Source: Microcoleus sp. FACHB-1515 (GTDB lineage Bacteria; Cyanobacteriota; Cyanobacteriia; Elainellales; Elainellaceae). Taken from it: DNA of 64,000 nucleotides. Both the position numbers and the translations under genes were made by a program. The notes under the pieces are model-generated. The model had not been told where the DNA came from. It searched no databases and saw only the letters and a program-made list of their open reading frames with translations. Below are positions 3,058 to 59,303 of the stretch, in pieces (positions within the stretch are counted from its first letter, which is position 1; each line of letters starts with the position of its first letter). The stretch covers positions 1-64,000 of the forward strand of contig NZ_JACJPO010000018.1 of the NCBI RefSeq assembly GCF_014696105.1, read 5' to 3'.

Positions 3058-3130
3058 TGGAGATAAGCGGATTCGAACCGCTGACCCCTTCAATGCCATT
3101 GAAGTGCTCTACCAACTGAGCTATATCCCC
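3058..3130 (-). tRNA. tRNA-Ala(GGC)
   Basis: On the minus strand a 73-base cloverleaf can be folded. The acceptor GGGGATA pairs with TATCTCC, the D arm is GCTC/GAGC, the anticodon stem CTTCA/TGAAG carries loop ATGGCAT (anticodon GGC), and the T arm AGCGG/CCGCT carries TTCGAAT. The discriminator base is A and CCA is not encoded. Its 3' end faces the Tn7-like element end, as expected for a tRNA used as a transposon attachment site. Confidence 0.95.
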
Positions 3131-5522: not shown

Positions 5523-5596
5523 CGGGACTGGCGCGATTTGAACGCGCGGCCTACCGCTTAGGAGGCGGTTGCTCTATCCTGCTGAGCTACAATCCC
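5523..5596 (-). tRNA. tRNA-Arg(CCT)
   Basis: A 74-base cloverleaf folds on the minus strand. The acceptor GGGATTG pairs with CAGTCCC, the anticodon stem ACCGC/GCGGT carries loop CTCCTAA (anticodon CCT, reading AGG), and the T arm GCGCG/CGCGC carries TTCAAAT. The discriminator is G and CCA is not encoded. Confidence 0.94.
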
Positions 5597-57117: not shown

Positions 57118-57804
57118 TTAGCCGTTCGGTAGCGGCAACAAAGCTTCGACCAGTTGAGATGCAAAAAAGGCGAATCCAATTCCAAAAATCACGAAGCCTG
57201 CTGAACGAAACTTCTCCGCCTGCTGCTCCAGCTTTTGTCGTGAAAGGATTGCTTTGGCAATGACAAAGGCAATCAGCGACACAACAATCTGAATTACGGT
57301 GAAGCCTGCCAAATAAGCAAGCAGCGGCATCATTTTTGCACCAAAAATCGCTTCGCCATAAGCATAACCGTGAAGCAAACCTGCGATCGCTGCCAGCCCA
57401 ATCAACAGCTTGACCTTGCAGCGATCGAGCTTCACCAGCAGCAAACCAAACAGCAAAATTGACCCCGTGACTAACAGTTCAATGCCTGGAATGCTAGCGC
57501 CTGCAAGATGAAGACTGGTGCCGAGCATTGCTGTCAGCAAAAAGGAAATGGGAATAAAAATTCCTTGGGAATGAATTGCCGCTAGCAATCCGATCGAGAC
57601 GACGATCGCAAAATGATCGAGTCCGATGATTGGGTGCGCTAAACCCGACAAAAATCCTTCAAAGAAGTTGGATGGCGTTTTCCCATCCAATGCATGATGA
57701 GCAAATGCAGGCGTTGCGGCAAGTAAAAAGCAGCTTGTCAAGCTCAACAAGGCTGCGGTTTTTTGCCAAGCTTTGCGAATGCGAAACTTGTTTAAAAAAT
57801 TCAT
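57118..57804 (-). CDS. hupE: HupE/UreJ family metal transporter, probably cobalt
   Basis: HupE/UreJ proteins are small membrane transporters for nickel or cobalt. The product of about 228 residues has a signal peptide ending TPAFAHH, the family motif HPIIGLDHFAIVVSIGLLAA near residue 50, and about six membrane helices with the second motif GLLHGYAYGEAIFGA near 138. ATG 57804 was chosen because it starts the signal peptide and follows a GAGG Shine-Dalgarno; the frame is open to 57945 but runs through the riboswitch. A cobalamin riboswitch directly upstream indicates repression by B12, so cobalt is the likely substrate. Confidence 0.92.
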   Translation of the reverse strand: MNFLNKFRIRKAWQKTAALLSLTSCFLLAATPAFAHHALDGKTPSNFFEGFLSGLAHPIIGLDHFAIVVSIGLLAAIHSQGIFIPISFLLTAMLGTSLHLAGASIPGIELLVTGSILLFGLLLVKLDRCKVKLLIGLAAIAGLLHGYAYGEAIFGAKMMPLLAYLAGFTVIQIVVSLIAFVIAKAILSRQKLEQQAEKFRSAGFVIFGIGFAFFASQLVEALLPLPNG

Positions 57805-57805
57805 C

Positions 57806-57822
57806 TTCTGTACCTCGCAGAA
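57806..57822 (-). promoter_or_regulatory. Hairpin holding the hupE ribosome binding site
   Basis: On the minus strand TTCTG (57822-57818) pairs with CAGAA (57810-57806) around the 7-base loop CGAGGTA, which contains the hupE Shine-Dalgarno GAGG. It lies one base upstream of the ATG. It fits an expression platform that controls translation, although the SD is in the loop, so the ligand-dependent switch is inferred. Confidence 0.5.
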
Positions 57823-57830
57823 ATGTAGAA

Positions 57831-57972
57831 GTTTGAAGAATCGGCGGGCATCCTGACTTTGAGATCTGACGATCGCATTACAGTTGCGGGACAGCGTTGG
57901 ACTTGCACCAAACTTTCCCCATTGCTTCTGATGGCTGTTCCCCATCAGAACCGATCGCTGAAGCCTTCAAAC
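57831..57972 (-). promoter_or_regulatory. Cobalamin riboswitch
   Basis: Reading the minus strand, the core has GGTGCAAGTCC, then the B12-box-like stretch GCTGTCCCGCAACTGTAA, then AAGTCAGGATGCCCGCC, in the order and spacing of the cobalamin riboswitch family. The outer P1 stem is perfect: GTTTGAAG (57972-57965) pairs with CTTCAAAC (57838-57831). The hairpin CTGATGGGGAACAGCCATCAG lies on the 5' side as P3/P4-type stems do. It sits 27 bases upstream of the hupE start and should switch off hupE when cobalamin is plentiful. Confidence 0.93.
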
Positions 57973-58079
57973 TATATCAGGCCAGCGGCACGAAAAGATA
58001 AACGATTCAAATTTGGCAAAGGAATTGGGTTGAGTTGCAACGTCGCTTCATGTCGAAAAAAGCAATGACAAAATAAGAA

Positions 58080-59303
58080 ATGAAACTACCGAAATTCCTT
58101 ATGACGATCGCGCCTTTAAGCTGGACAGAACTGGAAGCCCTCACGGACTGGCAAATCGATCGCATTAACGGTGCGACCAATGCACAAGCCCGTCTACGCC
58201 TGTTTGGTCAGTCAGAGTCAGATGTGCGGGTGACGCTGTATCGCGACAATCATGCCTGGTGTCCCTACTGTCAAAAAGTTTGGCTGTGGCTAGAGGAAAA
58301 GCAAATTCCTTACCGCATCGAAAAAGTCACGATGTTCTGCTATGGGCAGAAAGAAGACTGGTACAAGCGCAAAGTGCGATCGGGAATGCTGCCTGCGATC
58401 GAACTGGACGGACGCATCATCACCGAAAGCGACGACATTTTGATCGCGCTCGAAACCGTCTACGGCAGCTTGGGCTGGGGCATGAACGACCCGGAAGTGT
58501 TGCCGCTGCGGTGGCTGGAGCGATTGCTGTTTCGGGCATGGTGCGCTTGGCTGTGTCAGCGATCGAACGATCGTGAAGAACGTCGCAACCGCGAGCAGTT
58601 TATTAACGTCGTTGCCAAAGTCGAAGACGCACTTGAGCGCACGGATAGCCCTTATTTCCTTGACGATTTCAGCATCGTGGATGTCATCTTCACGCCCTAT
58701 GTCGAACGGATGAACGCCAGCCTGTACTACTACAAAGGCTATTCTTTGCGCGAAGAAAATCCGCACTTCAAAGCCTGGTTTGCCGCAATGGAAAGCCGTT
58801 CCACCTATCGCGGGACACAAAGCGACTTCCACACGCACGTCCACGATTTGCCGCCGCAAATGGGCGGGTGCTGGGCAAACAGCGATCCGCAAACGGCGAG
58901 CAATCAGGCGAAAGTCGATCGCGGCTCGTGGGACGAACTGCCGGATGTCGCCTATGCGGAACCCGAAACCTCGCGAGCAGAAGCACTCCAGCGCGTCATC
59001 ACGCATCGCAACAATATTATTCGCGTCAATCCGGCGGATGACGACCTGTTCGATCGCGCCCTCCGCTGCGCCTTGACTGCGATGATGACCGGGGAAGCTT
59101 GCGAACCGCCTGCCGGATCGGATATTGCCCTGCGCTATCTGCGCGATCGCATCAACGTTCCTCGCGATATGTCGATCTATGCGGCCAGACGACTGCGAAC
59201 CGCACTGGAGCAGACGGCAGCTTTGGTGGGCGATCGCCAAAGTCCACCCTTGCCCGTTCAGCATCGCCGCGACCAAGATCCAGCAAATTTTGCGCGGCGA
59301 TAG
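58080..59303 (+). CDS. Glutathione S-transferase family protein
   Basis: This 407-residue cytosolic protein has a thioredoxin-like GST N-domain (about residues 55-140) with the redox motif CPYC in [16 protein letters not shown]. The Ile-Asp-Gly-type binding segment is seen as [21 protein letters not shown] helical C-domain follows (about 150-260, with [19 protein letters not shown]). The long extra C-terminal part (about 270-407) is helical and unassigned. The CPYC site is like glutaredoxin/omega-type GSTs, so thiol transfer is more likely than conjugation. It is divergent from hupE and followed by the aldehyde dehydrogenase gene. Confidence 0.85.

Follow-up and report, generated by a model that had tools for sequence, protein, structure and literature searches.

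The window, a 64,000-nt stretch of a Microcoleus sp. FACHB-1515 contig, carries on its reverse strand a gene for a 228-aa protein of the HupE/UreJ family (57118..57804, start codon 57804-57802). The assignment comes from Pfam (PF04955, 132.1 bits, cut-off 23) and from a tree, in which the nearest HupE belongs to a Leptolyngbyaceae genome. The motif HPIIGLDH fits the HPxxGxDH signature that excerpts of PMC7689651 describe for HupE/UreJ. A longer open frame begins at 57945 and crosses the riboswitch aptamer described below; its start is not the likely start of hupE. Elsewhere in the window are two tRNA genes (RF00005), at 3058-3130 and 5523-5596 (-).

Upstream of hupE and on the same strand is a cobalamin riboswitch aptamer (57826..57970). 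It matches the Rfam model RF00174 over its full length (positions 1-189 of 189) at 61.3 bits against a cut-off of 31.5, with an E value of 9.6e-13 in 64 kb, and this covariance check bears out the cobalamin riboswitch proposed in a preliminary description of the locus. The P1 stem is formed by AGUUUGAAG (5' strand, 57965..57973) and CUUCAAACU (3' strand, 57830..57838), which are paired in the minimum-energy fold. By sequence it has 9 bp; the 8-bp stem first described is real, but it is contained in those nine. Within the RF00174 match, AGUCAGGA at 57851..57858 is what we take to be the B12 box, a name also used in published papers. The RF00174 alignment places the aptamer loop L5 (UCCCG) at 57887..57891, an assignment joined by covariation with a second loop, L13. 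In the same alignment, 7 nt stand in for 59 model positions, so the P6 extension is cut down to a short hairpin. Narrowing the search to 57942-57792 also revealed RF01482 (AdoCbl), which belongs to the same Rfam clan as RF00174. It too is matched at full length and above its cut-off (57797..57939, reverse strand, 56.6 bits, cut-off 50), and the match includes the Shine-Dalgarno hairpin; however, it scores below RF00174, the best-scoring of the families here, and the 5' half of P1 falls outside it. The AdoCbl-II class (RF01689) was also considered and set aside, at 31.2 bits against a cut-off of 36.5.

The distance from P1 to the ATG is 25 nt, and within it lies a 19-nt hairpin, P13 (UUUCUG(CGAGGUA)CAGAAG, 57805..57823), supported by the RF01482 alignment and a survey of relatives. 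Its loop L13 (CGAGGUA, 57811..57817) contains the Shine-Dalgarno sequence GAGG (57813..57816), with an 8-nt spacer to the ATG. The small hairpin with GAGG in its loop, as first noticed, is therefore real. It was then regarded as a structural oddity, but the loop aligns with the terminal-hairpin loop consensus of RF01482, CGAGGcA, and since that model ends in this hairpin, the arrangement belongs to an already described RNA family; what had been overlooked is the partner loop, L5. In a first count of 134 distinct riboswitches, 124 have a hairpin with a 7-nt CGNNNNA loop 3' of the B12 box; 50 dinucleotide shuffles give 6.2 on average and 16 at most. The Shine-Dalgarno hairpin of the hupE leader is not a chance structure. 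Among 51 distinct HupE platforms, the first in-frame start, set by rule and unannotated, lies 5-10 nt from loop position 5.

The comparison with other cyanobacteria draws on two sets of loci. RF00174 is present in 58 of 60 genomes of relatives, and the riboswitch survey consists of 124 loci above the RF00174 cut-off, including the four of the Microcoleus genome itself, with 24 weaker matches left out. For HupE, a class-wide search found the protein in 89 of 146 genomes, from which 30 loci were taken, and 80 loci from named genomes were added. An L5 pattern demanding GCAAC misses 27 of the 124 survey loci, most of which have GCAGC. The widened pattern is absent from three (L024, L225 and L226). 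It gave 173 distinct instances, one of which (L5 'GACTG') is a false overlap and was excluded, leaving 172 distinct switches, 159 of them with the hairpin.

L5 and L13 can pair with each other. In the window, UCCCG and CGAGGUA would form G-C and C-G pairs, a bulged A, two further C-G pairs and possibly a U-A pair. Three forms of L5 are found among the 172 switches, and the loop sequence changes with them. Where L5 is UCCCG (124 distinct switches), the loop is CGNGGNA in 108, no hairpin is found by rule in 13, and 3 have another loop. Where L5 is UACCG, the loop is CGAGUUA in all 16. Where L5 is UGCCG, it is CGNNGCA in 29 of 32 and another loop in 3; CGAGGCA loops, 14 of which occur with UCCCG, match both CGNGGNA and CGNNGCA as these patterns are written. 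Of the 159 distinct hairpins, 153 allow the key pair, which involves the L5 base that varies; reshuffling the loops, a procedure that leaves the relatedness among switches in place, gives 95.5 on average and 112 at most. Counting unique hairpin strings only, the pair is possible in 86 of 92 (reshuffled mean 49.6, maximum 63). The exceptions are 6 of 159 hairpins that break the pairing rule and 13 of 172 switches with no hairpin by the rule used. The 108 CGNGGNA loops differ at loop position 3, bulged in the model: 105 have A, 2 have U and one has C. Two hupE switches, L056 and L115, have the loop CGCGGUA, in which the bulged A has become C; this alters the Shine-Dalgarno sequence and keeps the complementarity to L5.

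The number of independent changes behind this pattern is small. The C-to-A change in L5 occurs once on the HupE tree, in the Pseudanabaena group, and a second case is found in another family, in a switch with a TonB receptor downstream (L152); the independent events are thus few. Both combinations can occur in one genome: G058 has a hupE switch with UACCG/CGAGUUA and another switch with UCCCG/CGAGGUA (L198, L019). The compensating changes in L5 and L13 (C-G, A-U, G-C) are evidence from nature for a cyanobacterial kissing loop.

From these observations we propose that hupE is very probably controlled by a translational cobalamin riboswitch of the kissing-loop type, in which the Shine-Dalgarno sequence is sequestered through L5-L13. 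A cobamide would bind in the four-way junction and steady the docking of L13 (CGAGGUA) onto L5 (UCCCG), and docking would place GAGG out of the reach of the ribosome. When there is little B12, the L13 loop would be free and HupE would be made, probably for cobalt import. A close counterpart is env8: passages of PMC10907184 describe a P13 whose loop holds the ribosome site and makes a kissing contact with L5, ligand dependence coming from a bulge of 1-2 nt. By that description, the small P13, the ribosome site in its loop, the pairing with L5 and the bulged nucleotide are all common to env8 and the hupE switch. The cobalamin riboswitch, its control of hupE and the translational mode of that control are each supported by the sequence comparisons. 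The preliminary description had also called the platform a neat case for translational control; the translational part finds that support, but the special design does not, as this is the standard P13/L13 kissing-loop platform.

Local folding suggests a different way of hiding the ribosome site. The aptamer could be right, and pairing of AUUUC with GAGGU in an alternative stem, with no kissing loop, could conceal the Shine-Dalgarno sequence. When the 31-nt platform is folded in isolation with ViennaRNA, the best fold (-5.3 kcal/mol) has a stem that pairs GAGG with UUUC, and P13 reaches -3.0 kcal/mol; the nearest relative, L064, likewise has a similar inner GAGG stem as its best fold (-3.7 kcal/mol), which lends this reading some weight and slightly lowers that of the kissing loop. 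However, of 51 distinct HupE platforms, 43 have P13 as their best local fold and 8 do not, and P13 and the L5-L13 complementarity are kept across the cyanobacteria examined. ViennaRNA also scores no loop-loop contact. We consider the alternative stem improbable. The whole 196-nt leader folds more stably than its shuffles (z = -2.33), and its best fold has P1 and is without P13.

Returning to the kissing-loop reading, the short platform also bears on whether the switch might act by transcription termination or RNA decay, with no hiding of the Shine-Dalgarno sequence. Termination has been postulated for a cobalamin riboswitch of Synechococcus PCC 7002, as stated in the consulted part of the Anabaena paper PMC10878165. 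In the window, though, the 25 nt from P1 to the ATG are occupied by P13, with GAGG in L13, and a search of 57700-58080 found neither promoter-like nor terminator-like sites. Given how little space there is and that no terminator-like site was found, transcription attenuation ranks low, and termination or decay is very unlikely as the mode of action.

The metal carried by HupE can be approached through the rest of the genome. HupE has a single match. A 1210-residue frame encodes MetH, and MetE (PF01717) has no match in the genome; from this combination, B12 is probably needed. The HupE/UreJ family has been split into predicted nickel and cobalt branches, according to the part of PMC2667541 consulted. 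Passages of PMC7689651 and PMC4284471 treat HupE as a cobalt importer in cyanobacteria where a B12 riboswitch controls it, and describe a hupE mutant of Synechocystis that cobalt or methionine can rescue. In line with this published work, the hupE product is probably, as the preliminary description proposed on sound grounds, a B12-repressed cobalt importer, with cobalt as its likely metal in view of the riboswitch, MetH without MetE, and the published relatives. Alternatively, HupE might import mainly nickel for urease, the riboswitch only coordinating import with B12. The genome does have a urease alpha subunit and only the one HupE match. On the other hand, it has no match to a NiFe hydrogenase, one would hardly expect B12 to repress nickel import, and both the probable need for B12 and the partly consulted accounts of cyanobacterial HupE and of the Synechocystis mutant (PMC7689651, PMC4284471) speak for cobalt. 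We regard a mainly nickel role as a poor prospect.

That cyanobacterial HupE lies under a B12 riboswitch is already published, and the window's locus is a further instance. Synechocystis hupE and its like have the same gene family under the same regulator, and the L5 and L13 of a Synechocystis salina switch (L142) are identical to those of the window. The annotation of the locus is routine, with a mechanism improved over the one first proposed. In the open-licence literature, judged by titles and abstract openings, we found no Shine-Dalgarno-in-loop kissing switch before a cyanobacterial hupE, which is weak evidence of absence. Among 105 distinct HupE proteins (111 loci), a switch lies directly upstream in 55 and within 1.6 kb in 7, none was found in 39, and 4 are on cut contigs; the 39 are an upper bound, because two loci (L074 and L098) show the P13 motif with no Rfam match above the cut-off. 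Presence or absence of the riboswitch changes at least 12 times on the HupE tree, a quickly built one in which many forks are weak.

The genome has three other cobalamin switches. One (C34:9115-8974, loop CGAGGUA) precedes a 61-aa frame resembling CbtB (30.6 bits, cut-off 27). A second (C63:195076-194930, L5 UGCCG, loop CGCUGCA) precedes an FAD oxidoreductase. The third, L004, is on the window's own contig (C10:83436-83573, L5 UGCCG, loop CGCGACA) and precedes cbiX (200.1 bits). Pairing in L004 needs an extra bulge, and it is counted among the pairing exceptions. Its Shine-Dalgarno sequence is outside the hairpin, and it matches both RF01482 (57.6 bits) and RF01689 (40.8 bits).

To each of the 172 distinct switches was assigned the first downstream gene recognised within 1.5 kb by tblastn with ten chosen queries. 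The form of L5 follows the kind of gene. All 116 switches of uptake or metal-handling genes have UCCCG or UACCG (HupE 66, DUF1636 18, CbiM 17, CbtB 11, CobW 4), and all 29 of synthesis genes have UGCCG (CbiX 14, FAD oxidoreductase 10, CobG-like 5). The CobG label is one that we presume, Pfam giving only nitrite/sulfite reductase domains. When the loci fetched for HupE are set aside, the split is 59/59 versus 29/29. TonB receptors are mixed, with UCCCG/UACCG versus UGCCG in a ratio of 5 to 2, and 20 of the 172 switches have no recognised gene. The split is explained in part by orthology, as a single switch may have been inherited with each gene family. A search of titles and abstract openings in the open-licence literature found no account of it, again weak evidence of absence.

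The loops divide in the same way. Those of the 116 uptake switches are CGNGGNA in 85 (with GAGG in 82) and CGAGUUA in 15; those of the 29 synthesis switches are CGNNGCA in 27, with neither CGNGGNA nor GAGG in any. In the first count, CGAGG occurred within 140 nt of the B12 box in 2 of 26 UGCCG switches. Some UGCCG switches have a Shine-Dalgarno-like GGAG or GAGG 3' of the hairpin (L004, L206, L197), and others, such as L162, do not. We suggest tentatively that the two kissing-loop codes follow gene function and may block the ribosome directly in one case and indirectly in the other, so that they would act at different B12 thresholds; we hold this as a possibility somewhat short of an even chance. 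The pairing of uptake switches with the Shine-Dalgarno sequence in the loop and synthesis switches with it outside raises the question of one cell using two designs with two B12 thresholds.

The seven TonB-receptor switches (L014, L018, L152, L153, L156, L175 and L186) span all three L5 codes, unlike the other families counted. At the CbtB-like locus of the Microcoleus genome (L002, G000:C34:8974-9115; also L237), a second switch with the Shine-Dalgarno sequence in its loop is followed by a CbtB-like small protein and then by a 378-residue protein with no Pfam match.
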